From positions 1-50,913 of the forward strand of contig CAIOBP010000172.1 of NCBI GenBank assembly GCA_903856295.1: DNA of 50,913 bases, given 5' to 3'. Shown in pieces: positions 1,280 through 50,086 of the stretch; position 1 is the stretch's first letter; each line of letters begins with the position of its first letter. This stretch comes from an uncultured Rhodospirillales bacterium. Its GTDB lineage: Bacteria > Pseudomonadota > Alphaproteobacteria > Azospirillales > Azospirillaceae. A program made the translations under genes and the position numbers. The notes under the pieces are model-generated. The model saw only the letters and a list, made by a program, of their open reading frames with translations. It did not search any database and was not told where the DNA came from.

Positions 1280-2392
1280 ATGTTCGATATCTTCGCCACC
1301 ATTCTGTCTGCCGGTGTCGTCATCTCGGTGGTGACGCTGGTGGTTCATGAGCCGCTGCTGCTCGCGGCGGGAATATCGACCATTCTCGGTCTGCTGTTCC
1401 TGCTGCTGCCGATGTTCGCCAGCATGGTCCCGGTGATGGGCTACCTGCTGGTCTTCACCGGCATCGTCAGCCTGGGGTATGGCGTGCTCAGCACCCGTTC
1501 CTGGTTGAATGTGCTGCATGCCCGCCGCTTGCAGGCGCTGGCCCGGCGCCAGCAGCTTCAGGCCGCCCGAGCCCAGACCACCCCCGCGCAGCCGGATGTG
1601 GCCCCAGCCGCCGCCGCCAGCCGGGTCAGGGACGAGGATGGCGACGACGAGCTGCCGGCCCATATCGCCGCCCAGCTCGATGAAGAAGAAGCGCCCCGGG
1701 GCCGACGCAAGAGTTCGCTCTCCCGCGTCGGCCGCAGCCTCGGGCGCGGCGCTCCCGAGCCGGAGCCCGAACTCGAGATCGAAACCAAACCCAAGGGCAA
1801 GCCCTGGCGAAACCCCTACGACCGGCCCGCCGCCGCGGAAACGCCGACGCCGACGCCGACGCCGGCTCCCGCCCAACCGCCAGCGCCCACACCGGCACCG
1901 CCACCGGCTCCGGTCGCGCCGCCAGCGCCGCCGCCCATGCCCGTCCCGCCACCGCCCGCGCCCGCCCCGGTGGTGGTGGTGGTGCCGGCTCCCGCTCCCG
2001 TGCCCAGGCCGGCACAGCCGCTGAGCCGTGGCGCCGAGCGAATCAAGCGGATCAAGGACGAATTCCGGCGCGGACAGTCGCCTCGCCACCCCAAGCCGAA
2101 AGCCAAAGCCGCCATTCCGGAAGCGCCGCCGCCGCCACCCATGCCCGTGCCCGTGCCCGCTCCGCCGCTGCCACCTCCGCCCCCGCCTCCTCCACCGCCG
2201 CCGCCGGTTCGCGAAGACGAATCCGTGCTCAAGGCGCGCCGGCAGCGGGACCTTATGGAGCTTGACCTGCTCGATCTGGAGACGCTTGAAGCCCCGGCGC
2301 GCCGCCAGCCCGAGCGGGGAGAGGACGCGGACGCCGCCAGGGAAGCCAAGGGCGCCAAGCCGTTCCTCAGCCGCATGGCGCGCCGTTCGTGA
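1280..2392 (+). CDS. proline-rich membrane protein of unknown function
   Basis: This 370-residue protein has no family I can name. The first 70 or so residues hold two or three hydrophobic segments (about 4-24, 27-46 and 50-67), so it is anchored in the inner membrane. The rest is a long soluble tail that is acidic and basic by turns. The tail carries two proline-rich tracts (about residues 185-245 with PTPTPAP-type repeats, and about 285-315 with an uninterrupted run of around twelve prolines) and ends in a basic segment. Such tails usually act as periplasmic or cytoplasmic spacers or as protein-binding platforms. Codon third positions are strongly GC-biased in this frame, which separates it from the antisense frames. 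It is transcribed towards cysH but about 150 bases away. Confidence 0.8.
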   Translation: MFDIFATILSAGVVISVVTLVVHEPLLLAAGISTILGLLFLLLPMFASMVPVMGYLLVFTGIVSLGYGVLSTRSWLNVLHARRLQALARRQQLQAARAQTTPAQPDVAPAAAASRVRDEDGDDELPAHIAAQLDEEEAPRGRRKSSLSRVGRSLGRGAPEPEPELEIETKPKGKPWRNPYDRPAAAETPTPTPTPAPAQPPAPTPAPPPAPVAPPAPPPMPVPPPPAPAPVVVVVPAPAPVPRPAQPLSRGAERIKRIKDEFRRGQSPRHPKPKAKAAIPEAPPPPPMPVPVPAPPLPPPPPPPPPPPPVREDESVLKARRQRDLMELDLLDLETLEAPARRQPERGEDADAAREAKGAKPFLSRMARRS

Positions 2393-2461
2393 GGCTCGGC
2401 AGCGGCGCGACCGACAAACCACAGTAGCTGCATGTTGATTTGCTGTTATGCACAATATTCG

Positions 2462-2490
2462 TTGCGATATTCCGGCGCGCCGACTATCTT
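2462..2490 (+). promoter_or_regulatory. candidate sigma70-type promoter for cysH
   Basis: TTGCGA (2462-2467) and TATCTT (2485-2490) are separated by 17 bases. They lie in a locally AT-richer patch about 50 bases before the chosen cysH start. By position the promoter would drive cysH-cysD-cysNC. Confidence 0.45.
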
Positions 2491-2538
2491 GCTCAGCGTC
2501 AGGCACCGGATGACGCATTGCACGATGTTTTCCACACC

Positions 2539-3270
2539 ATGAACAGCCCCCCTTCCTCCCCCCCCCATGATCCCGAGGCCGTTCGCGCGCGGGCCGAGCG
2601 GGTGGCGGCGCGGGTCGCCGGCCTCGACGGCGCCGCGCTGCTGGAGCCGCTGATCCGCGACGAGTTCGCCGGCCGGCTGGCGCTGGTCTCGTCGTTCGGC
2701 ACCGAGTCGGCGGTGCTGCTGGCCCTGGCCGCCGAGGTCGATCCTTCGGTGCCGGTGCTGTTCATCGACACCGGCGCGCTGTTCGGCGAAACCCGGCGCT
2801 ATCGCGACCAGCTGATCGCGCAACTCGGCCTGACCGATGTCCGCACCATTACTCCCGATCCCAAGGAGTTGCGCGCCGCCGATGCCGATGGCCTGCTGTT
2901 TCAGCGCGACCCCGACGCCTGCTGTCACGTCCGCAAGGTGCTGCCGCTGGAGCGCGCCCTCGCCGGCTTCGATGCCTGGATCAGCGGCCGCAAGCGCTAT
3001 CACGGCGCCACCCGCACCGAATTGCCGGTGATCGAGGCCGACCGGAGCTGGATCAAGATCAACCCGCTGGTCGCCTGGCCGCGCGAGCGCCTGACCACCG
3101 AGTTCGAACGCCGCGGCCTGCCCGCCCACCCGCTGGAAGCCGATGGCTTCCTCTCCATCGGCTGTATGCCCTGCTCCGAGCGGACGGCGCCGGGGGGCGA
3201 CATCCGCGCCGGGCGCTGGGCCGGCAAGGACAAGACCGAATGCGGCATTCACCGCCGCCCCGCCGCCTGA
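2539..3270 (+). CDS. cysH: adenylyl-sulfate (APS) reductase, assimilatory
   Basis: Reduces activated sulfate to sulfite with thioredoxin or glutathione in cysteine synthesis; cytoplasmic. The 243-residue protein shows the CysH fold: SSFGTES (PP-loop-like, about 51-57), a CC pair (128-129), CMPC (209-212) and the catalytic ECGIH tail (Cys236). The CC...CxxC set is the ligand set of a [4Fe-4S] cluster, which marks APS rather than PAPS reductases. This fits the adjacent ATP sulfurylase. The frame stays open to 2440, but I start at 2539 because the extra 33 residues would lie over the likely promoter and do not look like CysH. It is the first gene of cysH-cysD-cysNC, 39 bases before cysD. Confidence 0.93.
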   Translation: MNSPPSSPPHDPEAVRARAERVAARVAGLDGAALLEPLIRDEFAGRLALVSSFGTESAVLLALAAEVDPSVPVLFIDTGALFGETRRYRDQLIAQLGLTDVRTITPDPKELRAADADGLLFQRDPDACCHVRKVLPLERALAGFDAWISGRKRYHGATRTELPVIEADRSWIKINPLVAWPRERLTTEFERRGLPAHPLEADGFLSIGCMPCSERTAPGGDIRAGRWAGKDKTECGIHRRPAA

Positions 3271-3309
3271 CACACGCATCACACGCTCTTTACCAGGGAA
3301 ATCAGGTCC

Positions 3310-4110
3310 ATGGATCAGCTTTCGGCCCTTGAGGACCAGAGCATCTACATCTTCCGCGAAGCCTTCAACCGGCTCGACAAGCTGGCCATGCTGTGGTCGA
3401 TCGGCAAGGACAGCAACGTCATGCTCTGGCTGGCGAAGAAGGCGTTCTTCGGCCATGTGCCGTTCCCGGTGCTCCATGTCGACACCCACTACAAGATTCC
3501 CGAGATGATCGAGTTCCGTGACCGCATGGCCAAGGAATGGAAGCTCGACCTGATCGTCGGCGAGAACCGCGCCGCCCTCGATGCCGGCATGGGGCCGGAG
3601 CGCGGCCGGATCACCTGCTGCACCGCCCTCAAGACCGACGGCCTGAAAACCCTGATCGGCGACAACGGCTTCACCGCCGTGTTCGCCGGCATCCGCCGCG
3701 ACGAGGACGGCACCCGGGCCAAGGAGCGGGTGTTCAGCCCGCGCACCCAAAACGCCGAGTGGGACTTCCGCGACCAGCCGCCGGAATTCTGGGACCAGTT
3801 CAAGACCACCTTCCCGCCCGGCACCTCGTTGCGCGTCCACCCGATCCTGCATTGGACCGAACTGGATGTCTGGCGCTACATCAAGCGCGAGAATATTCCG
3901 CTGGTCGATCTTTATTTTACGAAGAATGGCCGCCGCTACCGTTCGCTCGGCTGCGCCCCCTGCACCGCGCCGATCGAGAGCCAGGCCAGCACCGTCGACG
4001 AGATCATCGCCGAGTTGGAGCGCAGCAACACCTCGGAGCGCGCCGGCCGCGCCCAGGACAAGGTCTCGGAAGACGCTTTCGAAAAGCTGCGCGCCGGCGG
4101 GTATATGTGA
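3310..4110 (+). CDS. cysD: sulfate adenylyltransferase subunit 2
   Basis: Small subunit of ATP sulfurylase, which forms APS from ATP and sulfate together with the CysN GTPase. The 266-residue protein has the PP-loop SIGKDS at residues 30-35. The conserved stretches following it ([37 protein letters not shown]) match CysD along its whole length. Length is normal. It sits between cysH and the cysN/C fusion on the same strand. The stop codon overlaps an ATG (TGATG at 4108-4112) opening a 38-codon frame, which I regard as incidental. Confidence 0.95.
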
Positions 4111-4153
4111 TGTCGGCACGCGAAACCAACGACACAGTGCCGGCGCCGGCATC

Positions 4154-4210
4154 CGGCCGCGACTGCGGCCGCGCGCCACGTGGCGCGGAAGTCCCGCCTG
4201 GGCGGGACTT
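4154..4210. repeat. three back-to-back hairpins between cysD and cysNC
   Basis: Three adjacent inverted repeats lie in the cysD-cysNC gap: CGGCCGC/GCGGCCG (4154-4160 and 4165-4171), the 16-base palindrome CGCGCCACGTGGCGCG (4172-4187), and AAGTCCCGCC/GGCGGGACTT (4189-4198 and 4201-4210). None has a T-tract. They could stabilise or process the mRNA between the two subunits. Confidence 0.7.
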
Positions 4211-4236
4211 CATCAGCAAAATATGAGAATGCCCAG

Positions 4237-6135
4237 ATGAACGCCATATCCCCCCAGAGCCTCGCGACCCAGCGCCGCCTGCCGATCGTGATCGTCGGCC
4301 ATGTCGATCACGGCAAGTCGACGCTGGTCGGCCGCCTGCTCAACGACACCGGCTCCCTGCCCGAGGGCAAGGTCGAGGCGATGCGCGAAATGAGCCGCCG
4401 CCGCGGCATGCCCTTCGAGTGGTCGTTCGTGATGGACGCGCTTCAGGCCGAGCGCGACCAGGGCATCACCATCGACACCACCCAGGTGCGCTTCCAGACC
4501 GCGACCCGGCCCTATGTCATCATCGACGCACCGGGACACAAAGAGTTCCTGAAGAACATGGTGACCGGCGCCGCCAGCGCCGACGCCGCGCTGCTGGTGA
4601 TCGACGTCACCGAGGGCGCGCTGGAACAGTCGCGCCGCCACGCCTATTTGTTGCATCTGCTCGGCGTCCGTCAGGTCGCGGTGGTGATCAACAAGATGGA
4701 CATGTGCGACTTTGCCGAGACGCGCTACCACGAGGTGGCCAAGGGCATTCTCGGCTATCTCGAAGAAATCGGCGTCACGCCCTCGGCGGTGGTGCCGATC
4801 TCGGCCCGCCACGGCAACAACATCGTGCTGCGCTGCAAGCACATGGGCTGGTACACCGGCCCGACGGTCGCCGAGGCCCTCGACGCCTTCAAACCGCCGA
4901 AATCGCTGACCGACCATCCGCTGCGCTTTCCGGTCCAGGACGTCTACAAGTTCGACGAACGCCGGATCATCGCCGGCCGCATCGAGAGCGGCGGGTTGGC
5001 GGTGGGCGATACTCTGATCTTTTCTCCCGGTGGCCGCACCGCCAAAATCCTGACCATCGAGAGCTGGAACGAAACCGGGAAGCGCACCAGCGCCGTCGCC
5101 GGGCAGTCGGTGGGCATCACCCTCGACCAGCAGATTTTCATCGAACGCGGCCACATCGCCGCCCGCGCCGAGGCCCGGCCGGTCGAGACCCACACCATCC
5201 GGGTCAATCTGTTCTGGCTCGGCCACGAACCGCTGGTGGTCGGGCGCTCCTACATCCTCAAGTTGGGCACCGCCGAGCATGATGTCACGGTCCAGGCGGT
5301 CGAGCGGGTGATCGACGTCGAGGACTTGTCGGGGCATGGCGGCGACCGGGTCGAGCGCAACGGCGTCGGCGAGGTCGTGCTGCACAGCCGCTCGACCCTG
5401 GTGGTCGATGATTTCGCCGATCTCTCGCGTACCGGCCGCGCGGTGCTGGTCGATGGCTACGACGTGGTCGGCGGCTGCATCATCCAGCAGCCGAAGACCG
5501 ACGATCTGCCGGCACACCATCATCTGATCGCCACCGAACACACCCTGACCGCCGAAGAGCGCTCGATCAGCAACGGCCATCTCGGCGGCATTCTGTGGCT
5601 GACCGGGCTCTCCGGCTCGGGCAAGTCGACCCTGGCCATGGGGCTGGAGCGCGAACTGTTCCGCAAGGGCGTGCAGATTTGCGCCCTCGATGGCGACGCC
5701 GTGCGCCAGGGCCTGAATGCCGACCTCGGTTTCTCGCCTGAAGACCGGGCCGAGAACATCCGCCGGGTGGCCCAGGTGGCGCGTCTCTTTGCCGAGAGCG
5801 GCATGATCGTGGTTACCGCCTTCATCTCACCGACCCGCGCCGATCGCGCCATCGCCCGCGACGTCGGCGGCGCCTTCTTCCACGAGATCCATGTCGCCGC
5901 CGATCTCGAGACCTGCGAGGGCCGCGACGCCAAGGGCCTCTATAAGAAGGCCCGCGCCGGCCTGATCCCCCAGTTCACCGGCGTCTCGGCCCCTTACGAA
6001 GCCCCGACCTCGCCGGAGTTGGTGCTCGACACCGCCAAATTCTCCGCCGAAGCCTGCCTTGCCGACCTTGCCCGCTACGCCGAGTTGGCCCTGATCCGCC
6101 CGGTGCGCCGGGGCGCCAAGGTCAAGGTGGCGTGA
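4237..6135 (+). CDS. cysNC: bifunctional sulfate adenylyltransferase subunit 1 / adenylylsulfate kinase
   Basis: This is a fusion of CysN, the GTPase that drives ATP sulfurylase, and CysC, the APS kinase. The 632-residue protein starts with GHVDHGKST (residues 21-29), followed by the translation-factor GTPase motifs DAPGH and NKMD and two beta-barrel domains. The C-terminal kinase begins around residue 450 with P-loop GLSGSGKST (about 456-464) and contains FISPTRADR and a normal PAPS-synthase end. I start at the ATG at 4237. The open frame extends upstream only through the hairpin repeats from a GTG. With an APS-type CysH next door, the kinase product PAPS may serve sulfation rather than reduction; that is inference. 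Confidence 0.95.
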
Positions 6136-11644: not shown

Positions 11645-12523
11645 TTATCGCAGCCCCAGCGGCACGGCGTAGCCGCCCAGGGTATTGAGGCGCACCGGGA
11701 CCGGAGCGAGGCGGTCGGCGCAGGCGGCGAGGCGGGAATCGCCGGGGCCGACGAAGCCCGCCACCTCGACCAGATGGACCGGCGCCGAACCGGGGCGGCT
11801 GAGCCAGCTGCTAAAATTGATCACCGGCAGGTAGCAGTTATCCAGCACGTCCTTGAGGCGGGCGCGGCTGACATCCTCGCCCAGCTCGATGCGCACCAGC
11901 GAACGGTCGAGCAGATACTGCGACTCGTCGTCTCCGGTGGGCTCGTGGGGCACCAGCGCGATCACCAGGGCGTCGCGATCCTCGCCCCGGCTGTTGCCGC
12001 GGCCGAAGAAGGGCAGGCGGGCGACCACGCGCGGCGTCTTGGCGTCGTCGCCATTGATGAAGCGCCACCAAGGATCGGTGTCGTCCTCGAAGGGAAAGGG
12101 CACGACGCCGACGCTGGCGGTGCCCTCGGCCACCGCGCGCACCACCGCCACCGGCGTTTTGGCCGCGGACATCGGGGTGAAACTGCCGAAATGATCGCGG
12201 GCGACGTCCCAGAACCCGCGCTTCTGTTCGTCGGGCGCGAAGACCACGACGCCGAATCGGCCCTGCATCTGGGTCAGGCCGGAAATCAGCTCCCGCCACA
12301 TGCGCATGACCACCGCCGCCGGCATCTCGCCGCAATGGCGTCCGGCGAGGCGGCGCAAGATCATGGCCTCGCGCGCCGGCCGCAACGCCACCTGCCCCGC
12401 GCCCTTGACGGCGCCGACCAGCTTGACCACCTCGGCGCGTTGCAGCAGCAGATCGTGAATGGCATCGTCGATGCCGTCGATCCGTTGGCGCAATTCGTCG
12501 AGGGGAGGGGTCGATTGTGTCAT
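11645..12523 (-). CDS. chorismate mutase (AroQ class) with C-terminal extension
   Basis: The first 90 or so residues of this 292-residue protein are an AroQ chorismate mutase: LDELRQRIDGIDDAIHDLLLQRAEVVKLVGAVKG, then the RPAREAMILRRLAGR block and EMPAAVVMRMWRELISG. This catalyses chorismate to prephenate for Phe and Tyr synthesis. The remaining 200 residues resemble a periplasmic-binding or prephenate-dehydratase-like region (FGVVVFAPDEQ, ASVGVVPFPFED, GRGNSRGEDRDALVIALVPHEP). I do not see the dehydratase TRF catalytic motif, so it is probably not a full PheA. Convergent with creA and divergent from metX. Confidence 0.85.
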   Translation of the reverse strand: MTQSTPPLDELRQRIDGIDDAIHDLLLQRAEVVKLVGAVKGAGQVALRPAREAMILRRLAGRHCGEMPAAVVMRMWRELISGLTQMQGRFGVVVFAPDEQKRGFWDVARDHFGSFTPMSAAKTPVAVVRAVAEGTASVGVVPFPFEDDTDPWWRFINGDDAKTPRVVARLPFFGRGNSRGEDRDALVIALVPHEPTGDDESQYLLDRSLVRIELGEDVSRARLKDVLDNCYLPVINFSSWLSRPGSAPVHLVEVAGFVGPGDSRLAACADRLAPVPVRLNTLGGYAVPLGLR

Positions 12524-12630
12524 GGTCGGGCAAACCGGTGCGTAAAAAGCGGGACAGAGGCGCTGGGAGAGTCTAGCGCCTGTCGGCGCCGCGGTCAAAA
12601 TCAAAGAAAGCCCCCAAGACAAAGAAAACG

Positions 12631-12659
12631 TTGACACCTCCAAGGCTTGGTTCATAGCT
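12631..12659 (+). promoter_or_regulatory. promoter for metX-metW
   Basis: A consensus TTGACA (12631-12636), a 17-base spacer and ATAGCT (12654-12659) predict transcription from about 12666. This rules out the first in-frame ATG at 12647 as the metX start. Confidence 0.55.
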
Positions 12660-12703
12660 ATGCGGCCTTGATGTGCAGCTCCGAGTGCGACCCCGCCAAA
12701 TTC

Positions 12704-13909
12704 ATGCCCACTGAGCAACCAGCCCTCGACACGGCGACCGTTGGCGCCGATCTCGAGCATGAACCGCGACTGATGCTGGCGACCAGCCGGCCGATGCCCC
12801 TCGATTGCGGCGAGCAGTTGCGGAGCTTTCCGGTTGCCTACCGCACGTTCGGGTCGCTCAACGCCGACAAGTCCAACGCCATCCTGATTTGCCACGCCCT
12901 GACCGGCGATCAGTACGTGATCGGCCGCAACCCGGTGACCGGCAAGCCGGGCTGGTGGGAAATCGCGGTCGGACCCGGACGGCCGATCGACACCGACCGC
13001 TTTTTCGTGATCTGCGCCAACGCGCTGGGCGGCTGCATGGGCACGGCCGGGCCACGCGAGATCGACCCCGCCACCGGCGAGCCCTACGGCCTCAATTTCC
13101 CGGTGATCACCATCGCCGACATGGTGCGCGCCCAGAAGCTGCTGGTCGATCATCTCGGGATTTCCCAGCTGTTCGCCGTCATCGGCGGTTCGATGGGCGG
13201 CATGCAGGTGCTGCAATGGGCCTCGGATTATCCCGACTCCGTGTTCGCCGCGCTGCCGCTGGCCGCCGCGCCCCGGCATTCGGCCCAGAACATCGCCTTT
13301 GGCGAGGTCGGGCGGCAGGCGATCATGGCCGATCCCGACTGGTGCGGCGGCAACTACGTTCGCCAGGGCAAGCGCCCCGAACGCGGGCTGGCGGTGGCGC
13401 GCATGGCCGCCCACATCACCTATCTGTCCGAGACCGCGCTTCAGCGCAAGTTCGGGCGCAATCTCCAGGACCGGGCGGGGTTCACCTACGGCTTCGGCGC
13501 CGACTTCCAGGTCGAGTCGTACCTGCGCTATCAGGGCAATGCCTTCGTCGAGCGCTTCGACGCCAATTCCTACCTCTACATCACCCGCGCCATGGATTAT
13601 TTCGATCTGGCGCGCGAGCATGGCGGCGTGCTGTCGCGGGCCTTTCTCCATAACGGCCGGGCGACTCCGGTGCGTTTCTGCGTCATCAGCTTTTCCAGCG
13701 ACTGGCTGTTTCCCACCGCCGTCTCGCGGGAGATCGTCCACAGCCTCAACGCCGTGGCCGCCAATGTCAGCTTCGTCGAGGTCACCACCGACAAGGGCCA
13801 CGACGCCTTCCTGCTCGACGAGCCGGAACTGCATCAGGTGCTCTCCGGCTTCCTCGACGGCTGCGCCACCCACCGGGGATTGCCGCGACGGCGGCGAGGG
13901 TTGAGATGA
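12704..13909 (+). CDS. metX: homoserine O-acetyltransferase (alpha/beta hydrolase)
   Basis: Acylates homoserine in methionine synthesis; cytoplasmic. The nucleophile is Ser163 in [43 protein letters not shown] and the C-terminal [11 protein letters not shown] (catalytic His region) are all family signatures. In-frame ATGs lie at 12647, 12671 and 12704. The promoter excludes the first, and the length before the conserved LDCGE block favours the third (401 residues). It overlaps metW by four bases (ATGA), the usual metXW arrangement. Some MetX enzymes use succinyl-CoA instead of acetyl-CoA, which I cannot decide. Confidence 0.93.
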
Positions 13910-14568
13910 GATTCGGACCCGAATACGACCCTGCCGAGCACGAGGACGACCGGCCGACCGCCGAGCCCGCCATCCGCACCGATCTCAAGCTGATCGCCGA
14001 CATGATCGTGCCCGGCTCGCGGGTGCTCGATGTCGGCTGCGGCGATGGCGCCCTGCTCGCCCATCTCGTTCACACCAAGGGCGTCGACGGGCGCGGCATC
14101 GAGCTTTCGATGGATGGCGTGAAATTCTGCGTCAATCACGGCCTTTCGGTGATTCAGGGCGACGCCGACACCGACCTGAAGGACTATCCCAGCGACGCCT
14201 TCGATTATGTCATCCTGTCCCAGACCCTCCAGGCGATGCGGGCGCCGCGCGAGGTGCTGCTGGATCTGGTGCGCATCGGCAAACACGCCGTGGTCTCGCT
14301 GCCCAATTTCGGCCACTGGCGGATTCGCGCCTGGCTGCTGTTCATGGGCCAGATGCCGGTGACCCAGCGCCTCGGCCATCAATGGTGGAACACCCCCAAC
14401 ATCCACCTCTGCACCATCACCGATTTCGTGGATCTATGCCGCGAAGTCGGGGTGGTGATCGAAGACACCGTGATCCTCGACCGCTTCGACCGCGTGCGTG
14501 GCCACGGCTTCGGCGGCTTCGCCAATTTCATCGCCGAACAGGCGGTGTTTCTGTTGCGGCGGGGCTGA
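13906..14568 (+). CDS. metW: methionine biosynthesis protein MetW
   Basis: This 220-residue protein has a SAM-methyltransferase-like fold with motif [13 protein letters not shown]. The MetW-specific blocks [22 protein letters not shown] and [13 protein letters not shown] follow. MetW associates with and activates MetX in proteobacteria. It overlaps metX by four bases, so the two are made together. It ends 11 bases from the convergent gene at 14580. Confidence 0.95.
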
Positions 14569-14579
14569 GGGGACGCGGA

Positions 14580-15263
14580 TCAATTGATGTCGGTCAGCAG
14601 GCCGATCTTCAGGGCCTCTTCCTTGGTCAGGATTTTTTCATGGCCAGCTCTCGGGCTGTGCACGGCCCACTCGACGAAATTGGCGTTGAGCCCCCTCTCG
14701 ATGTAAAGTTTTTTCAGCATTTCGTTGGTCTCAAGAATTGTCCGCGAGGGCATGGCGGTCATCGATTGTCCCGACGGGCTGGGATCATCCGACGCGCCAT
14801 GGATCAGGTAAGATGATTTCAGCATGCCGATGCGTTTGGTCGCGGAAGCAAGAATGATCGTGCAAGAGCTGATGCAGTATTCGGAAACGATCACCGTCAT
14901 GTTCGAGCGTCTGGCGAATGCCGCGATCACCATGGCATGATTTATACTGCCGCCCTCCGACGCGATATGAATCGTTTTGATCCCCCTCATGCCCTGGGTA
15001 CTGAGGGCAGTCAGCATTTCCTGCCCAACCGGGCCGCGCAAATACAATGTATCGGCAATTCTTTGAACGGAAACCTCGCAAAGCGCCGGTCCGCAATACA
15101 GGATGAAACCGCAAAAGACCAGAAGCGAAACGAACCCGAGCCGCGCTCGTCCCAACCAAGCAAAGGGCGCCGAACACCACGAAAAAAGTGCAAAATGGCG
15201 CCCAGGCGACCACTTGCGGCTTCTCCCGACGGAGTCAGCGGACGTCTTCTTCACTGTCGTCAC
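14580..15263 (-). CDS. exported ClpP/crotonase-fold protein (COG3904-like)
   Basis: This 227-residue protein has a basic, 45-residue N-terminus and one hydrophobic segment (GFVSLLVFCGFILYCGPAL), then a soluble domain outside the membrane. The domain reads LYLRGPVGQEM, IHIASEGGSINHAMVIA, SEYCISSCTIILASATKRIG and SYLIHGA. This is the oxyanion-hole glycine and Ser-Cys-Thr pattern of secreted ClpP-like proteins. A proteolytic role is plausible but unproven. The listed start is a GTG, and later in-frame GTGs are possible. GC is lower than in neighbouring housekeeping genes, hinting at transfer. Confidence 0.7.
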   Translation of the reverse strand: MTTVKKTSADSVGRSRKWSPGRHFALFSWCSAPFAWLGRARLGFVSLLVFCGFILYCGPALCEVSVQRIADTLYLRGPVGQEMLTALSTQGMRGIKTIHIASEGGSINHAMVIAAFARRSNMTVIVSEYCISSCTIILASATKRIGMLKSSYLIHGASDDPSPSGQSMTAMPSRTILETNEMLKKLYIERGLNANFVEWAVHSPRAGHEKILTKEEALKIGLLTDIN

Positions 15264-24077: not shown

Positions 24078-24180
24078 GATCGCCTCTTGCGGCACCAGGG
24101 AAACAGCGATCCACTTCTAGGACATGGCAGGACGGCGCGCAATGCCGCACTCGAGTCGCCGCCGGCGGCGGGAACTGGTA

Positions 24181-24687
24181 TCAGCGGCGGCGGTGCTGCT
24201 CGATGATCGGGGCGGTGAACTGGGGTTCGATGTCCCAGGGAAAGTAGATCCAGGTATCCTGGCCAACCTCGGTGATGAAGGTGTCGACCAACGGCCGGCC
24301 GGCCGGCTTGGCGTAAACGGTGGCGAAATGGGCCTTGGGCAGCATATGCCGAACCAGCGCGGCGGTACGGCCGGTATCGACCAGATCGTCGATGATCAGC
24401 CAGCCCTCGCCATCGCCGTCCAAAGGCTTGAGCACGCGCGGCTCGCCCTGGCTCTGGTGATCGTAGCTGGCGAGGCAGATGGTGTCGACCAGCCGGATCT
24501 CCAGTTCACGGGCGACGATCGCCGCCGGCACCAGCCCGCCGCGCGTGACCGCGACAATGCCGCGCCACGGACCAAGCTCGATCAGCCTCCAGGCAAGCGC
24601 GCGGGCGTTGCGGTGCAACTCCTCCCAGGAAACCGGAAAACTGCGGCGCGGCGCGGCGGCTGGCTCTGGCTGGCTCGGTGTGGACAC
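24181..24687 (-). CDS. gpt: xanthine-guanine phosphoribosyltransferase
   Basis: Purine salvage: converts xanthine or guanine plus PRPP to XMP or GMP. The 168-residue protein has the Gpt core: [36 protein letters not shown], the PRPP-binding loop [18 protein letters not shown] and TWIYFPWD near the end. No ATG is in reach; the GTG at 24687 gives the usual length. It is transcribed towards the channel gene, divergent from the cyclic-nucleotide-gated channel whose ATG lies 108 bases away. Confidence 0.88.
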
Positions 24688-24795
24688 GGCGGCTCGCCCC
24701 CTGGAAATGCGGACTCGCGGCGGCGCCCGCAACTGTCGCGCCCGCCGCAGAAGGTCCATTTGCACGCGGGAGGGCAGACACGCTATCCTGTGGCC

Positions 24796-25986
24796 ATGGA
24801 CCAGGAAGAACAAGATAGCCGCTATCGCCGGCTGCGCGCCAGAGTCGCGCGCCTGACCGATCCGGTGGCCCTGAGCACGGAGTCGCGGCTGGTCCGCCGG
24901 CTCGACATGCTGCTGATCGTCTGGGGGGTGCTCGGGGTCCTGCTCGGCGACGAGCCGGCTTTCGCGGCCGAGCGCCCGCTGCTGGTCGATGTGCCGCTGG
25001 CCGGCTTCATCCTGGTGTTCCTGATCCGGCTGTGGGTGCTGCCCGATCAGCTCGGACACGAGATGAAGGCCGCCGCCGCCACGCGGCTCGACTGGTTGTG
25101 CTCCAGCCGGGGTCTGGTGGATTTTCTCGGAGCGTGGGCGATTCCCGCCGCCCTGCTGTGCGGGCTGCCCGCCGAGGATGCCGATCTCTTCGGTGTGCTG
25201 TGGGTGTTCAAGCTCGCCCGCTACTCCCAGGGTCTGTCGGTGCTGTGGCGGGTGATTCAGATCGAGGCCGAACCGCTGGCCGGCGTTTTGTTCGCCTTCA
25301 TGGTGACGCTGGTGTGCGCGGCGGTGCTGGCCCATCTGCTCGAGCGCACCGCCCAGCCGGCGGCCTTCGGCACCGTGGCCATGTCGCTGTGGTGGACCAT
25401 CACCACCCTGACCACCACCGGCTATGGCGACGTCACCCCCGTCACCACCGCCGGGCGCATGCTGGCCGGGCTGGTGATGATGTCGGGCATCGTGGTCTTC
25501 GCGCTGTGGGCCGGCATTCTCGCCACCGGCTTTTCCCAGGAGATGCGGCGGCGCGCCTTTCTGCGCACCTGGGATCTGGTGGCGCGGGTGCCGTTCTTCC
25601 ACGCCGTCGGCGCCACGGTGATCGCGGCGGTCGCCCAGCGGCTGCGGGCGCGCGAGGTCTGTGCCGGCTCGGTGGTCGTGCGCAAGGGCGATGCCGGCGA
25701 CTGCATGTTTTTCATCGTCGAGGGCGGGGTCGAGGTCCATCTCCCGGATGCCAGTCCGCGCCTGGGCAACGGCACGTTCTTCGGCGAAATGGCCCTGATC
25801 TCCGGCGCCCCCCGCAGCGCCACCGTGATCGCCACCCGCACCACGCAATTGCTGATCCTGGACATCGCCGATTTCCGCGACCTTGCGGTCCGCTACCCCG
25901 AGCTTAGCCAAGCCATCCACGAAGAAGCGCAGAACCGCCGCCACTGCCCGACGGCAGAGGGTGAACAGCAGGACGCCGAAGCATGA
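24796..25986 (+). CDS. cyclic-nucleotide-gated potassium channel (MloK1-like)
   Basis: This 396-residue six-helix K+ channel has a cytoplasmic cyclic-nucleotide-binding domain. Helices S1-S4 occupy residues about 35-160. The pore loop carries the K+ filter TTTGYGD. S6 ([20 protein letters not shown]) leads without a long linker to the CNBD (about 280-380). The phosphate-binding cassette [17 protein letters not shown] includes the Glu and Arg that contact cAMP or cGMP. The layout is that of bacterial MloK1 channels, slightly longer at the N-terminus. It overlaps the next gene by four bases (ATGA). Confidence 0.92.
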
Positions 25987-27587
25987 CCGACATTGACGAT
26001 GACCTGATGTTCGGGGACGACGCGCCCGAGGAGCCGGCAACACCGGCGGTGCCGGCCGAGCGCTGGAAGATGCTGGTGGTCGACGACGAGCCGGAGGTTC
26101 ACTCGATCACCCGGCTGGTGCTGGCCGATTTCGCCTTCAAGGGGCGGGCGGCGCAGCTGCTCAGCGCCTATTCGGCGGCCGAGGCGATCCAGATTCTGGA
26201 GCGGGAAAAGGGCATCGCGCTGATTCTGCTCGACGTGGTGATGGAAACCGAGGATGCCGGGCTCAAGCTGGTCCACCACATCCGCGAGGTCATGAACAAC
26301 CGCCACGTCCGGATCATCCTGCGCACCGGCCAGCCCGGACAGGCGCCCGAACGCGCGGTGATTCTCGAGTACGACATCAACGACTACAAGTCGAAGACCC
26401 AGCTCACGGCCCAGCAGCTCTTCACCTGCACCGTGGCGGCGCTGCGGTCCTACGAAGATCTGATCACCATCGACGCCAACCGGCGTGGCCTGGAAAAGAT
26501 CATCGAGGCCGCCAGTTCGCTCTCGAAAACCCGGTCGATGCGCTTGTTCGCCACCGGCGTGCTGACCCAGCTCAGCGCCCTGGTCGGCGGCGGCCCCGAC
26601 GCCCTGCTCTGCGTTCAGCTCGGCGACATTCGCCGGACCGACCCCGAGCGGCTGTATGTTCTGGCCGGCACCGGCCGTTATGAGCCGCTCACCAACGAAC
26701 CGCTGAACGGCCATGTCGAACCCGAGATCGCGGAAGAAATCTGGCACTGCTTCGCGGTCCGCCAGAACCTGTTCCTGTCCACCCACTGCGCCATGTACAT
26801 CAGCACCCCGAACGGCCGGGAAAACGTCGTTTACATGAACTCCGGCCGCAGTCTCAGCGCGCTCGACCAGCAGCTGGTCGAAGTGTTCTGCGACAAGATC
26901 ACCGTCGGCTTCGAGAATATCTATCTTTATGAGCAGTTGCTGAAGGTCCAGCAGGCGACGGTCGCCACCCTGGCCAACCTCGCGGATATCGCCCAAATCG
27001 ATATCGACAGCGCGGCGCTGGCCGACCCGGTGCGATATGCCGAGTCGCGCCGGCTCGCCGACCTGTCCGAGAGCCTCGCCCGGGCGCTTCACGCCGGGCG
27101 GCAATTCCGCGAGACCATCGACGAAACCTTCCTCGGCCTGCTCGGTTTCGCCGTCATGCTCCATGATGTCGGCAACGTCGTGGTCACCGACGGCATTCTG
27201 CTGAAACCCGGCCCGCTCGCCGAAAACGAACTGTCGCTGATGCGGCAGCACACCGTGCATGGGGCCGCGATCCTCAAGCGCGCCTGCGCCACGGTCGAGG
27301 GGCCGAATTATCTGGCCCTGGGCGCGGAGATCGCCCGCTGCCACCACGAGAATTTCGACGGCACCGGCTATCCCAACCGGCTCAGGGGCGAGGACATTCC
27401 GCTGGCCGCCCGCATCGTCGCCGTGGCCGACACCTACGACGCCCTGATTTCCGACCGCCCCCACCGGCCGGCCTGGACCCACGAGGCGGCGCTGGCGGAG
27501 ATCGCGGCGCAGGCGGGCAAGCGCTTCGACCCGGCTATCGTCGAGGCTTTCCAAAGAGTTGTCGCCGAGGGAGCCGTCACGTCATGA
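25983..27587 (+). CDS. response regulator with DUF3369 and HD-GYP domains
   Basis: This 534-residue cytoplasmic regulator has a receiver domain (about residues 28-155, acidic VVDDEP and phospho-Asp in [11 protein letters not shown]). A DUF3369 sensory-like domain follows (about 175-330), then an HD-GYP domain (about 345-530). HD-GYP enzymes hydrolyse cyclic di-GMP. HD (MLHDVGN), the HTVHG His, [11 protein letters not shown] and VADTYDAL are present. The Lys of HDxGK is Asn, and I do not see the usual upstream ExxxH metal ligands, so activity may be altered. ATGA overlaps on both sides couple it to the channel gene and the zincin gene. Confidence 0.9.
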
Positions 27588-45078: not shown

Positions 45079-46329
45079 ATGAATATGATTGCTTGTTCCT
45101 GCCCCCCAGACGTCAAGCCTGCCCGTCTCAGCCGGATCCTTCCGCAACTTCTGGCCACGGTCACTCCGGTCACGGGCACCGAGACCGTGCCTCTGGCCAC
45201 CGCTCTCGGCAGGGTTCTCGCCGAACCGGTGACCGCGGCCACCGCCATCCCGCCCTGGGACAATGCGGCGATGGATGGCTATGCCGTGGCGGCGGCCGAT
45301 CTTCAGCCCGCGTGCGAAACCACGCTGCCGGTGTCCGCGCGGATTGCCGCCGGCCACCCGGCGCAAGCCGAACTGCCATCCGGCCAGGCCGCCCGCATTT
45401 TCACCGGCGCCCCGATCCCGGCGAGGGCGGACGCCGTGGTGATGCAGGAGCACTGCCGGGCCGGCGAGGGGGTGGTGACACTGCCGGCGGGTGTCGTCGC
45501 GGGTACCAATATTCGCCGGGCGGGCGATGATCTGGCCCGTGGAGCGGTGGCGCTCCAGGCCAGACGCCGGCTTGGGCCGGTGGACCTCGGGCTGGCGGCG
45601 GCGGCCGGCGTGTCCCGGCTCACCGTCCGGCGCCGGCTCCGCGTCGCCCTGGTCTCGACCGGCGACGAACTGCGCGAACCGGGACACGGGAGCACTCCCG
45701 GAACCCTGCATGACAGCAACCGCTACACCCTGCTCGGCCTGCTTCAGCAATTGGGATGCGAGACGACGGACCTGGGCATTCTGCCCGACCAACCCGCGAT
45801 CATCGCCGAAGCGCTGGCGCGCGCGGCGCAGAGCCACGACGCCTTGATCACCTCGGGCGGCATGTCGGTTGGCGAGGAGGACCACCTCAAGGCGGCTCTG
45901 GTCGCTGCCGGCGGCCAGATCGACCAGTGGCGGCTGGCCATCAAGCCGGGCAAACCGGTTGGCGTCGGCACTCTCGGGCCAGCCCTGTTCCTCGGCTTGC
46001 CCGGCAATCCGGCGGCAGTGGCGGTGACGTTTCTGCTGGTGGCGCGGCCGCTGCTGCTCCGGCTGAATGGCGCCGACGACCAGCCCTGGCCACGACTGCG
46101 GGCGACCGCGAGCTTTCACTATGCGCGCGCGCCCGGCCGGCGCGAGTATCTGGCCGCAATCCTGGACGGCGATTCCGGGAGCGAGGCCCGGGTGTCTCTG
46201 TCGGGCCGGCAAGGCTCCCACATCCTGAGCACCCTTGCCGCCGCCGACGTCCTGGTCGAATTGCCCGAGGATTGCGTGGCGGTACGGCCGGGCGATTCCG
46301 TGACCGTGCTGCCATTATTGTCTGCATGA
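45079..46329 (+). CDS. moeA: molybdopterin molybdenumtransferase
   Basis: Inserts molybdate into adenylated molybdopterin, the last common step of Moco synthesis. The 416-residue protein shows PPWDNAAMDGYAV, RIFTGAPIPARADAVVMQE, VALVSTGDELREPG, ALITSGGMSVGEEDHLK and GLPGNPAAVAVTF, all MoeA signatures. It stands without other moa/mob genes. Its stop overlaps the start of a histidine kinase gene (ATGA), an unusual partner. A weak FNR-like site lies upstream. Confidence 0.95.
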   Translation: MNMIACSCPPDVKPARLSRILPQLLATVTPVTGTETVPLATALGRVLAEPVTAATAIPPWDNAAMDGYAVAAADLQPACETTLPVSARIAAGHPAQAELPSGQAARIFTGAPIPARADAVVMQEHCRAGEGVVTLPAGVVAGTNIRRAGDDLARGAVALQARRRLGPVDLGLAAAAGVSRLTVRRRLRVALVSTGDELREPGHGSTPGTLHDSNRYTLLGLLQQLGCETTDLGILPDQPAIIAEALARAAQSHDALITSGGMSVGEEDHLKAALVAAGGQIDQWRLAIKPGKPVGVGTLGPALFLGLPGNPAAVAVTFLLVARPLLLRLNGADDQPWPRLRATASFHYARAPGRREYLAAILDGDSGSEARVSLSGRQGSHILSTLAAADVLVELPEDCVAVRPGDSVTVLPLLSA

Positions 46330-47474: not shown

Positions 47475-47504
47475 TTGCCGGGGCCTCGGCCTTTGGACTA
47501 AACT
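47475..47504 (+). promoter_or_regulatory. candidate promoter of the riboswitch-bluB transcript
   Basis: TTGCCG (47475-47480), 18 bases, TAAACT (47499-47504). Predicted start at about 47511 coincides with the 5' edge of the cobalamin riboswitch. Confidence 0.4.
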
Positions 47505-47508
47505 AGGG

Positions 47509-47665
47509 CATCTATCTGGTGCCCTGTGCGGGAGAATCGGGAACGCGGTGCAAAACCGCGACGTGCCCAACGCTGTGAGGGGGACTGAGCGGACAGTTTG
47601 CCACTGGCTTCGGCTGGGAAGGTGTCCGCTCGGGATGAACCCAAGTCAGAAGACCGGCCAGATGG
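47509..47665 (+). promoter_or_regulatory. cobalamin riboswitch
   Basis: All conserved parts appear in order: GGTGCC start, GGGAACGCGGTGCAAAACCGCG (pseudo-arm GGGAA...GGTGCAA-type), the GCTGTGAGGGGGA segment, the B12-box GCCACTGG, GGGAAGGTGTCCGC, GGGATGAACCCAAGTC and the closing AGAAGACCGGCC. It ends about 55 bases before bluB, consistent with translational or termination control by adenosylcobalamin. Confidence 0.93.
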
Positions 47666-47721
47666 AGATGGCTCAGCCGGCATGGACGGTCGGCGGGGCG
47701 TGCCATCACAGGGGAATGATG

Positions 47722-48489
47722 ATGGATAGTACTTTTCTGCCCGCAGCGCCTTTGGCCGAGGCCGAGCGCGAGGGACTTTACCGGGCGATTCTCACCCGCC
47801 GGGACACACGCGGCGAATTTCTGCCCGATGACGTGCCGGACGAAATCGTCAGCCGCATCCTGGTTGCGGCCCACCATGCGCCGTCGGTTGGCTTCATGCA
47901 GCCCTGGAGCTTCGTCATCGTGCGCAACCCCGAGGTGCGCCGCCGGGTTCACGATGCCTTCGTGACCGCCCACGCCGAAGCGGCGCTGATGTTTCCCGAG
48001 GACAAGCGGGATTTTTACAGTGCGCTCAAGCTTGAAGGCATCATGGAGGCACCGCTCAACATCTGCGTCACCTGCGACCGCAACCGCGCCGGCCCGGTGG
48101 TGATCGGCCGCACGCACATCCGCACCATGGATATGTTCAGCTCGGTGTGCGCGGTGCAAAACCTGTGGCTTGCCGCCCGCGCCGAAGGGCTGGGCGTCGG
48201 CTGGGTCAGCATCTTCGACAACGCGACGGTTCAGGCGGCCTTGAACATTCCCAAGGGCATCGTGCCGATTGCCTATTTGTGCGTCGGCAAGGTCAAGGGC
48301 TATCACCGCCGGCCAGAGCTGGAGGCCGCAGGCTGGCGCCCGCGCTTGCCGCTCGACGAACTGCTGCATTTCGACCAGTGGGACGGTCCCGAGCCGGAGG
48401 AAGCCTTGACCCGGCTGGTCCGCGAAGACCAGCGCTCCGTCAATCAGGGAACGTTTGTCGGAGCGCTCGCTCAATCGCTGCGCCAGTAA
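47722..48489 (+). CDS. bluB: 5,6-dimethylbenzimidazole synthase BluB
   Basis: Flavin-destroying enzyme that makes the lower ligand of vitamin B12 from FMNH2 and O2. The 255-residue nitroreductase-fold protein has the BluB signature ILTRRDTRGEFLPDDVPDEIVSRILVAA then HHAPSVGFMQPWSFV, and GVGWVSIFD later. Three ATGs lie in tandem (47716, 47719, 47722). The last is seven bases from AGGGG and is chosen. A cobalamin riboswitch precedes it and a strong terminator follows, so B12 should repress it. The reaction needs oxygen. Confidence 0.93.
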   Translation: MDSTFLPAAPLAEAEREGLYRAILTRRDTRGEFLPDDVPDEIVSRILVAAHHAPSVGFMQPWSFVIVRNPEVRRRVHDAFVTAHAEAALMFPEDKRDFYSALKLEGIMEAPLNICVTCDRNRAGPVVIGRTHIRTMDMFSSVCAVQNLWLAARAEGLGVGWVSIFDNATVQAALNIPKGIVPIAYLCVGKVKGYHRRPELEAAGWRPRLPLDELLHFDQWDGPEPEEALTRLVREDQRSVNQGTFVGALAQSLRQ

Positions 48490-48496
48490 CGCCGGC

Positions 48497-48533
48497 CCGG
48501 CGGCCTCCGGGGTCCGGAGGCCGCCGGTTCTTT
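48497..48533 (+). terminator. intrinsic terminator after bluB
   Basis: CCGGCGGCCTCCGG (48497-48510) and CCGGAGGCCGCCGG (48514-48527) form a perfect 14-bp stem with a 3-base loop, followed by TTCTTTCCT. It separates bluB from the GTPase-ABC pair. Confidence 0.85.
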
Positions 48534-48572
48534 CCTCATTCCTGTCCGAAAAGCGCGCGAAAAGAGACGCTC

Positions 48573-49277
48573 ATGAAGCTGGTTATTTGTGCCGGCCCGG
48601 CGACGACCGGCAAGACCTCGGTCCTGCGCCATGTCATCAAGAAGCTGCTGGAGCGGGGGCATCGGCCGGCGTTTCTGAAACTGGACATCCAGTTCGCCGA
48701 AGAGGACGAGCTGATCACCCGCGAGTTCGCGATTCCCACCCGCAAGGTCTATTCGGGAGAGCTGTGCCCGGATCATTGTCTGGTCATTGTCCTGAAAGAC
48801 AGCATGGTTTGGGGGCAGAAAACCGGCAGCGATGTCCTGCTGGTCGAAACCGCCGGCCTGTGCCTGCGCTGCTCACCCTATGTCGAGGACGGGTTGGGGG
48901 TGATCGTGCTCGAGGCGACCAGCGGCATGAACCTGCCGCTCAAGGTCGGGCCGATGCTGACCCTGGCCGATGTCGCGGTGGTGACCAAGGTCGATCGCGT
49001 CTCCCAGGCGGAGCGCGAGGTGTTCCGGGCCCGCATCCAGGACGTCGCGCCCGCCGTGCGCATCCGCGAGGCCAACGCCCTCTATGGCATCGGCCTGGGG
49101 CCGCTGGTCGACACGATTCTGGCCACGCCCGACATCGGCGACACGACGCTGCTGCGCGGTAGCCCGCCCGCCGGCTCCTGCACCATTTGCACCGGCGCCC
49201 GGGAAATCGGCCAGACCTCCCATTTCGGCCGGGCCAAAACCTTCGACAACGGCCTGACCTACGAGGGTGCGCGATGA
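48573..49277 (+). CDS. cysteine-rich P-loop GTPase of the CobW/HypB/UreG (SIMIBI) class
   Basis: Motifs of this 234-residue soluble protein are P-loop GPATTGKTS (8-16), an Asp/Gln switch region LKLDIQFAEEDE, DVLLVETAG in the G3 position, and TKVD (138-141) for guanine binding. It carries three cysteine pairs: CPDHC (65-69), CLRC (97-100) and CTIC (203-206), suiting metal or Fe-S binding. Metal-chaperone GTPases such as HypB and UreG have the ENVG/ETAG-type G3. Its stop overlaps the next start (ATGA), so it is coupled to an ABC ATPase. No hydrogenase, urease or known corrinoid methyltransferase is nearby. The metal and client are unknown. Confidence 0.75.
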   Translation: MKLVICAGPATTGKTSVLRHVIKKLLERGHRPAFLKLDIQFAEEDELITREFAIPTRKVYSGELCPDHCLVIVLKDSMVWGQKTGSDVLLVETAGLCLRCSPYVEDGLGVIVLEATSGMNLPLKVGPMLTLADVAVVTKVDRVSQAEREVFRARIQDVAPAVRIREANALYGIGLGPLVDTILATPDIGDTTLLRGSPPAGSCTICTGAREIGQTSHFGRAKTFDNGLTYEGAR

Positions 49278-50086
49278 TCGAGCGGATTTCAGTGCTGGCC
49301 GGCCGGGGGCGCCGGAGCGAAGCGGATGCCGTGCCGTGCCTCGAGTTCCGCATGGGCGATGTCGTCAGCATCGTCGGTCAAACCGGCTCCGGTAAAACCA
49401 CCCTGATCAACGACATCGAGATGTTCGCCGCCGGTGATACGCCGAGCGGGCGGCGGGTGCTGATCGATGGCGAGCCGGCTCCCGCCGCGTTCCGGGACGA
49501 CCCCGCCTGCAACCCGGTGGCGATGATCACCCAGCACACCACCTTTCTCTCCGACCTGCCGGTTGGCGATTTTCTGCACGCCCACGCCCGCATCCGCAAG
49601 GCCACCCCGGAAGAAATGGCCACCGCGGTGGCGCGCACCCTGGATTTCGCCAACGAGTTGACCGGCGAGCCGATCGCCCCGGCCAGCCGGATGACCGAAC
49701 TGTCCGGCGGCCAGGTTCGCGCCCTGCTGATCGCCGATGCCACGGTGATTTGCCACACCCCGATCATTCTGCTCGACGAGGTGGAGAACGCCGGCATTCA
49801 TCGCGGCCGGACCCTGGCGCTGCTGCGTCAGCACCGCAAGATATTCATCTTCGTCACCCACGATCCCAACATCACGCTGCTGTCGGATTATCGCATCGTC
49901 ATGAAAGAGGGGCGCATCGCGGCGCTGCTGCCGACCGATGAGATCGAACGCTCCCTGCGCCCCGCCGTCACCGGGCTGGACGACATGATGTCCCGCCTGC
50001 GCGATCAACTGCGCTGCGGACAGCGGGTGCGGCCGTCCGACCTGGATGCCCTGAGGCCGGCGCAGCTGCGATCTTTTCGGGAATAA
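49274..50086 (+). CDS. stand-alone ABC-type ATPase coupled to the metal-type GTPase
   Basis: This 270-residue soluble ABC ATPase has Walker A GQTGSGKTT (35-43), Q-loop Gln87, signature LSGGQ (143-147) and Walker B IILLDEVENAG. The D-loop position differs from transporter NBDs, and the H-loop His is at 196 (FVTHDP). There is no membrane domain and no permease or binding-protein gene nearby, so a soluble energising role is likelier than transport. The start overlaps the GTPase stop by four bases. Its end is 10 bases from the convergent hemerythrin gene. Function unknown; with the GTPase it may load or reactivate a metal or corrinoid enzyme. Confidence 0.78.
   Translation: MIERISVLAGRGRRSEADAVPCLEFRMGDVVSIVGQTGSGKTTLINDIEMFAAGDTPSGRRVLIDGEPAPAAFRDDPACNPVAMITQHTTFLSDLPVGDFLHAHARIRKATPEEMATAVARTLDFANELTGEPIAPASRMTELSGGQVRALLIADATVICHTPIILLDEVENAGIHRGRTLALLRQHRKIFIFVTHDPNITLLSDYRIVMKEGRIAALLPTDEIERSLRPAVTGLDDMMSRLRDQLRCGQRVRPSDLDALRPAQLRSFRE

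Follow-up and report, generated by a model that had tools for sequence, protein, structure and literature searches.

A GTPase and soluble ABC ATPase gene pair in an Azospirillaceae genome and its relation to a wider Fe-S protein operon

The gene pair and its setting in the window

The DNA analyzed here, referred to as the window, is a stretch of 50,913 nucleotides that makes up one contig in the genome assembly of an uncultured Rhodospirillales bacterium of the family Azospirillaceae. It carries two consecutive genes, one for a GTPase of the kind represented by CobW, HypB, and UreG and one for a soluble ABC ATPase (Table 1), with the stop codon of the first and the start codon of the second sharing the bases ATGA, i.e., a four-base overlap. 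The gene upstream of the pair, bluB, is preceded by a cobalamin riboswitch, and the gap between bluB and the pair contains a hairpin resembling an intrinsic terminator; the segment from 48490 to 48540, which includes it, folds with −34.6 kcal/mol and a z-score of −3.78. Downstream of the ABC gene, on the opposite strand, is a hemerythrin gene (PF01814), so that the neighbors of the ABC gene are bluB, the GTPase gene, and the hemerythrin gene, with no permease gene adjoining it. The original prediction, made from the letters of the sequence, had described the locus as a metal-type GTPase with three cysteine pairs, translationally coupled to an ABC ATPase lacking a permease and located behind a riboswitch-controlled bluB and its terminator, and each element of this description was confirmed. 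Further upstream, the window holds moeA (molybdopterin biosynthesis, 45079–46329), which is separated from the bluB riboswitch by a histidine kinase gene; no evidence ties moeA to the GTPase–ABC pair.

Table 1. Positions of the gene pair and of the features upstream of it, numbered along the window
Feature	Position	Strand	Details
Cobalamin riboswitch, 5' of bluB	47500–47676	+	RF00174, 110.6 bits (gathering threshold 31.5)
bluB, 5,6-dimethylbenzimidazole synthase	47716–48489	+	TIGR02476, 250.5 bits (cut-off 150); PF00881
Intrinsic-terminator-like hairpin, gap between bluB and the pair	48497–48527	+	14 pairs, 13 of them G-C
GTPase gene	48573–49277	+	234 aa, CobW/HypB/UreG kind, SIMIBI fold
Soluble ABC ATPase gene	49274–50086	+	270 aa

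The GTPase passes the model of the CobW/HypB/UreG family (PF02492, 44.4 bits against a cut-off of 20.7), and fails those of the HypB equivalog (TIGR00073, 34.9 bits versus 121.2), the UreG equivalog (TIGR00101, 27.4 bits versus 204.2), and MeaB (PF03308, 18.2 bits versus 23.1). Its cysteine pairs are C65/C69, C97/C100, and C203/C206, located in the motifs CPDHC, CLRC, and CTIC, respectively; when the protein is aligned with 31 relatives, five of the six cysteines are invariant, the exception being C69, which is nearly invariant. These three motifs and the P-loop are kept in the window protein, and its C-terminal tail has diverged. The predicted model of the protein (pLDDT 84.1) is closest to the structure of UreG with nickel and GMPPNP (Z 22.2, rmsd 2.2 over 185 residues), followed by HypB (Z 20.8) and MeaB (Z 18.6), and a profile alignment places CPDHC at the CPH motif of UreG. 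Both UreG and HypB, which are GTPases of nickel insertion, bind their metal at a dimer interface under the control of GTP. The window GTPase shares with these two proteins the SIMIBI fold, the P-loop, and the position of a Cys-Pro-His-type motif, but it scores far below their equivalog cut-offs and has the additional CLRC and CTIC pairs as well as an ABC partner.

Regarding this partner, it passes the ABC transporter family model (PF00005, 50.4 bits, cut-off 25), and inspection of the alignment by eye found Walker A, LSGGQ, Walker B, and the H-loop all kept. Among the best 25 of its 162 NCBIfam matches, the protein resembles many importer and exporter models, all far under their cut-offs, and no SufC model is among these 25.

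The operon of the relatives and its surroundings

A scan that took a single genome for each species yielded 56 loci with relatives of the pair (designated with L-numbers; 693 kb in total), coming from many phyla and including two from archaea, whose GTPases have a best-segment identity of 59–78% to that of the window. In 53 of them, the GTPase gene is immediately preceded by the ABC gene, and 41 of these 53 pairs overlap by four bases, the same length as in the window; the pairing is therefore not a product of chance, and the two genes, which the original prediction treated as a unit, do recur together beyond the window. An ABC gene was not seen in the other three loci: in L042 and L050 the GTPase gene is at the edge of the contig, and L049 looks broken. 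At this last locus (L049:7986–8900, from a Pirellulales MAG), inspection by eye found a GTPase gene missing its 5' end, no ABC gene, and only a fragment of the frame of the Fe-S protein described below, and it was entered as a miss in the partner counts. The latter were made by tblastn, with some loci stopping short of where the partner genes would lie.

The most regular of these partners is a gene for an Fe-S protein, found downstream of the pair in 51 of the 56 loci, or in 46 of the 47 where the contig leaves room for it. A gene for a NifS-type cysteine desulfurase is inside the operon in 29 of the 56 loci, and in 28 an Rrf2 regulator is encoded upstream, so that neither can be considered obligatory; the desulfurase of the Heliobacterium mobile locus, L030, reaches 494.8 bits with the NifS model, just below the cut-off of 530.75. 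In this work, the operon with the order ABC, GTPase, and Fe-S protein, often with NifS and Rrf2, is called type A, a name coined here. The remark that no client of the GTPase is visible accordingly holds for the window but not elsewhere, where the Fe-S protein is a steady partner. The annotated clusters of recurrent neighbors comprise the Rrf2 regulator, the cysteine desulfurase, the Fe-S protein, OAH sulfhydrylase, proteins of the cysteine-synthase/CBS type, MetX-like proteins, MetW, and nitrogenase-like proteins. A cluster of ABC-type neighbors (c6) occurs in eight loci and never adjoins the pair.

In uncut frames, the Fe-S protein has about 200–330 residues, and its mean column identity over 27 members is 56% (one example is L030:9939–10679). 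All 27 members scanned have the PF04060 Fe-S motif at their N-terminus, and the C-terminal half has four invariant cysteines in the alignment of these members (A1), namely C133, C135, C140, and C203; for this half, no Pfam model exceeded its curated cut-off. The best match among solved proteins is a weak one (E 0.003) to the N-terminus of the large subunit of the corrinoid/iron-sulfur protein. At the level of the fold, Foldseek returned no match at E 0.001 or better, and structure comparison gave at best Z 4.4 over 57 residues.

The operon is unevenly spread. In a sample of one phylum, the profile of the Fe-S protein was positive in 4 of 297 genomes, for which reason type A can be regarded as rare in that sample, and the window GTPase, used as a query against 385 genomes of its own class, retrieved only the window genome and one genome with the type B pair discussed in the next section. 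A search of PLSDB found no relatives of the Fe-S protein on plasmids.

Certain type A operons lie close to genes of sulfur metabolism. At 9 of the 56 loci (L003, L005, L010, L013, L016, L030, L033, L039, and L057), which come from Chloroflexota, Omnitrophota, Actinomycetota, and Heliobacterium, the flanks (at most 8 kb on each side) hold a member of the OAH-sulfhydrylase/cystathionine-enzyme family or the cysteine-synthase/CBS family; in L039, the OAH gene is preceded by a SAM riboswitch. The corresponding genomes were searched for 50 of the 56 loci, i.e., all but L002, L004, L006, L013, L023, and L049, and 41 of these 50 have an OAH-sulfhydrylase match (E 1e-40), mostly in only one or two copies. 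On a rough estimate, given these low copy numbers, the sulfur genes are near type A more often than random placement would produce, with the reservation that related loci are not independent.

Nitrogenase-like genes also occur in these surroundings. A protein like MarD, at an identity of at least 45%, is encoded in 5 of the 50 genomes; its gene shares a contig with the operon at a distance of about 1.6 kb in L030, 2.2 kb in L031, 18 kb in G193, and 21 kb in G147, and in the fifth genome the operon is on a contig of 5.7 kb, too short to show co-location. The label MarD derives from similarity to the Heliobacterium copy and from a study of heliobacteria (PMC9147875) in which such homologues, those of Heliobacterium mobile among them, are grouped with the MarDK proteins of R. 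rubrum. Methylthio-alkane reductase or nitrogenase was considered as a general client of type A and rejected, because a nitrogenase-like match at E 1e-10 is lacking in 38 of the 50 genomes and because G004, a genome of the same genus as the window that carries a type A operon, has no MarD match at E 1e-60; the proximity is kept as a local association. An Azospirillaceae MAG has a sulfur island (L110:2968–15668) about 21 kb away from its type A operon; the island comprises two genes of the OAH-sulfhydrylase family, a cysteine-synthase/CBS-type gene, and two MarDK-like pairs. In Heliobacterium mobile (L030), the operon sits between two different nitrogenase-like gene pairs, at 2220–5136 and 12280–15067, none of whose four proteins reaches an NCBIfam cut-off.

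The type B sister clade and the place of the window pair

A second form of the pair was found in 5 of 145 genomes, which are those of the window and of the relatives. Its GTPase has about 40% identity to that of the window, and the pair, named type B in this analysis, forms a separate clade with 100/100 support in both the GTPase and the ABC trees, always with the gene order GTPase then ABC (5 of 5). VnfG is present in seven of the 145 genomes, and all five with type B are among these seven (hypergeometric 4e-8, with related genomes counted as independent); the remaining two, G001 and G077, have no type B match at E 1e-30. In G009 and G004, both vnfK and vnfG, each exceeding its NCBIfam cut-off, are located within 10 kb of the pair; vnfG is about 13.5 kb away in G064 and on a different contig from the pair in G002 and G124. 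The type B loci L070, L071, L072, L073, and L074 are all from VnfG-positive genomes. In L070, a gene for a protein with the solute-binding fold (PF13343) precedes the pair and one for a nitroreductase follows it; a weakly ATP-grasp-like gene is also present there, with a DUF364/DUF2478 protein gene and vnfK close by.

These data agree with a printed description of Azotobacter vinelandii (PMC9542535), in which an operon dependent on VnfA1 includes Avin_02430 (solute-binding protein), Avin_02420 ("nickel binding GTPase"), Avin_02410 (ABC ATPase), Avin_02400 (nitroreductase), and Avin_02390, all but the last conserved in Proteobacteria with V-nitrogenase. A relative of the pair is therefore already in print, yet no function is assigned to the operon there. 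Judged by the printed description alone, the Azotobacter operon resembles the window in having GTPase and ABC ATPase genes in this order, and differs from it in the solute-binding protein, the nitroreductase, and the V-nitrogenase setting. This is the one printed operon from which the kind of pair is known; no description of the type A operon was found in searches of an open-access library, and it may be in print elsewhere.

Vanadium is not the only setting of type B. The type B GTPase of Fusobacterium vincentii and the Vnf-linked one of L070 share 60% identity, and at the Fusobacterium locus (L115:10823–18236, NZ_CP084075.1) the pair has a DUF1858/SBP_bac_6 protein upstream and is followed by genes for a DUF6162 protein, a ZnuA-like protein, an ABC ATPase, and an ABC-3 permease. 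The sequence record is labeled a plasmid, yet measures 2.1 Mb. The absence of a permease beside the pair, noted by the original prediction, holds for the mapped type A loci, where none recurs in an adjoining position, though this type B pair sits in a run of metal-transporter genes.

By sequence, the window pair is type A and not type B: it falls inside type A in both trees, with 58–75% identity to type A against about 40% to type B. In the ABC tree, it groups with alphaproteobacterial members with 86/85 support, which is under the starred level, and the GTPase tree does not settle its position within type A. In several respects it is an outlier. Its end branches in the two trees measure 0.69 and 0.87, versus medians of 0.17 and 0.28, and its gene order, GTPase then ABC, is the reverse of that in every type A relative showing both genes (53 of the 56 loci, plus L069, L107, and L108). 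The Fe-S partner was not found in the window genome, either with profile A1, whose best match there was 13.8 bits over a short stretch, or with a single-protein search; the same profile recovers the positive controls G004 and G009 at 2e-103 and 8e-122, respectively. Since the genome is a draft of 255 contigs (98.97% complete), the missing gene could be a gap. The GTPase deviates at 11 of the 110 positions conserved at 95% or more, compared with 5 for the next worst member and a median of 1, and 7 of these 11 changes fall within residues 202–229; the ABC protein deviates at 2 of 97 conserved positions, inside the range of its relatives. The genome has no match to vnfG (TIGR02930), no second GTPase at E 1e-30 and hence no type B pair, and no MarD match at E 1e-60, and it contains four PF00148 matches on one contig. 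Within the genus, only 2 of the 5 genomes searched have type A, namely that of the window and G004.

Taken together, the window pair looks like an orphaned derivative of type A that has lost its usual Fe-S partner. As the changed residues of the GTPase include those of its C-terminal tail, this tail is the likely docking site for the Fe-S protein, and it may have been freed to change once the partner was lost.

A putative core for the assembly of metal-sulfur centers

The reading that we prefer, with a probability of about 0.5, is that the pair is a nucleotide-driven core for the assembly or delivery of a metal/sulfur cofactor, present in the window as an orphaned derivative. That a UreG-like GTPase occurs together with a soluble ABC ATPase, an Fe-S acceptor, and a desulfurase suggests that nucleotides drive the loading of a metal-sulfur center, and from this we infer the mechanism, comprising the identity of the metal, the formation of a complex, the assembly of a cluster, and any client. 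The GTPase would take up a metal ion at a GTP-dependent Cys/His site, that of CPDHC, and then hand it on, while the soluble ABC ATPase would provide the same complex with a conformational stroke. In a complete type A operon, the acceptor would be the two-domain Fe-S protein, with the sulfur often supplied by the NifS-type desulfurase and the set often under the control of Rrf2. Because of this acceptor and the frequency of NifS and Rrf2, the product is probably a metal-sulfur cluster, one that would be needed under sulfur or metal limitation. In type B, a core of this kind would be tied to vanadium nitrogenase and accompanied by a nitroreductase and a solute-binding-fold protein. What is left in the window is the core by itself, with its order swapped and without the Fe-S acceptor; it may serve another acceptor, such as the organism's own Nif machinery, or may be on its way to being lost. 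A fuller version of this reading can be offered only tentatively, namely that type A is an undescribed, patchily distributed system of metal-sulfur assembly that loads an Fe-S acceptor, that its type B sister was re-purposed for vanadium, and that the window core serves a further client without the acceptor.

Two known systems offer partial parallels. The SUF and SMS systems (SufBC/SmsBC) have a soluble ABC ATPase in common with type A, many operons of which also have a cysteine desulfurase; type A differs in its GTPase and in its Fe-S protein, and no SufB-like gene is among its annotated recurrent neighbors. An ABC-type ATPase is likewise involved in the activation complex of methyl-coenzyme M reductase. 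The report on this complex (PMC12176620) concerns the ATP-driven activation of a metal cofactor; no partner proteins were seen to be common to the complex and type A, 54 of whose 56 loci are bacterial.

The main rival to cluster assembly is plain metal trafficking, in which the GTPase and the ABC ATPase would pass a metal (vanadium, nickel, zinc, or iron) from one cytosolic carrier to another, with the Fe-S or solute-binding partner acting as a reservoir. The UreG-like CPDHC site fits this idea, as do the occurrence of type B in Vnf genomes and beside the ZnuA and ABC-3 genes of Fusobacterium, and the partner with the solute-binding fold (PF13343) that is encoded ahead of the pair in both L070 and L115. 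It is nonetheless rather unlikely, since the two-domain Fe-S protein of type A, the frequent NifS, and some neighbors related to cysteine and homocysteine point to sulfur as well as to metal.

For the window itself, the pair may instead be a decaying or neutral type A remnant, stranded by rearrangement and without present function. The swapped order, the missing partner, the long end branches, the altered GTPase tail, and the scarcity of type A within the genus are all compatible with decay, but both frames are intact and overlap by four bases, none of the six cysteines or of the ABC motifs has been lost, and at conserved positions the ABC protein deviates no further than its relatives do; we therefore consider a remnant a realistic but less likely possibility.

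The original prediction had gone further and suggested a possible module for the activation of a metallo- or corrinoid enzyme, located behind the B12-controlled bluB. The metal part of this proposal is supported, inasmuch as a UreG/HypB-like GTPase is conserved with a permease-less ABC ATPase and both clades of such pairs occur near metalloenzyme or sulfur genes, but the corrinoid part is not. The riboswitch and bluB are directly upstream of the pair, the GTPase is structurally related to MeaB, a chaperone of B12 mutases, and the N-terminus of the Fe-S protein weakly resembles the corrinoid/iron-sulfur protein. Against this, Rfam scans of the 56 relatives' loci found no cobalamin riboswitch (the only matches were a TPP riboswitch, a SAM riboswitch, two tRNAs, and a single sRNA family present twice), and no B12 gene is among the annotated recurrent neighbors. 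Moreover, the terminator-like hairpin parts bluB from the pair, and in four relatives of the same genus bluB has no GTPase–ABC pair within the 14–17 kb fetched. The GTPase has a fold related to that of MeaB and MMAA but scores below the cut-offs for these families, and no mutase is among the annotated neighbors. A corrinoid link as a conserved feature was rejected, and control of a corrinoid module together with bluB appears very doubtful. The riboswitch and bluB probably lie outside the pair's own system, and, with the riboswitch absent from the 56 loci and bluB unpaired in the genus relatives, the bluB neighborhood is best taken as the present address of the pair and not as a guide to its function. 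Homologues of the ion-channel and HD-domain genes found at 24124–27587 of the window, about 20 kb from its bluB, lie near bluB in L103, L105, and L106, which suggests a rearrangement.

Finally, it is hardly credible that the ABC protein is the ATPase of an ordinary importer, next to an unrelated GTPase and with its permease encoded elsewhere, as its likeness to importer and exporter models far under their cut-offs is outweighed by its pairing with the GTPase in 53 of the 56 loci, by the identical split into type A and type B in the two trees, and by the c6 cluster never being next to the pair.

Returning to the assembly reading, there appears to be a widespread family that is sister to the pair of the Azotobacter vanadium regulon and is tied to an Fe-S protein and often to a cysteine desulfurase, and the wider type A operon deserves follow-up more than the window pair alone. 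If type A and type B work alike, they would offer a route to understanding how nucleotide energy loads metals or clusters, which matters for the assembly of the vanadium cofactor and perhaps for methylthio-alkane reductase.
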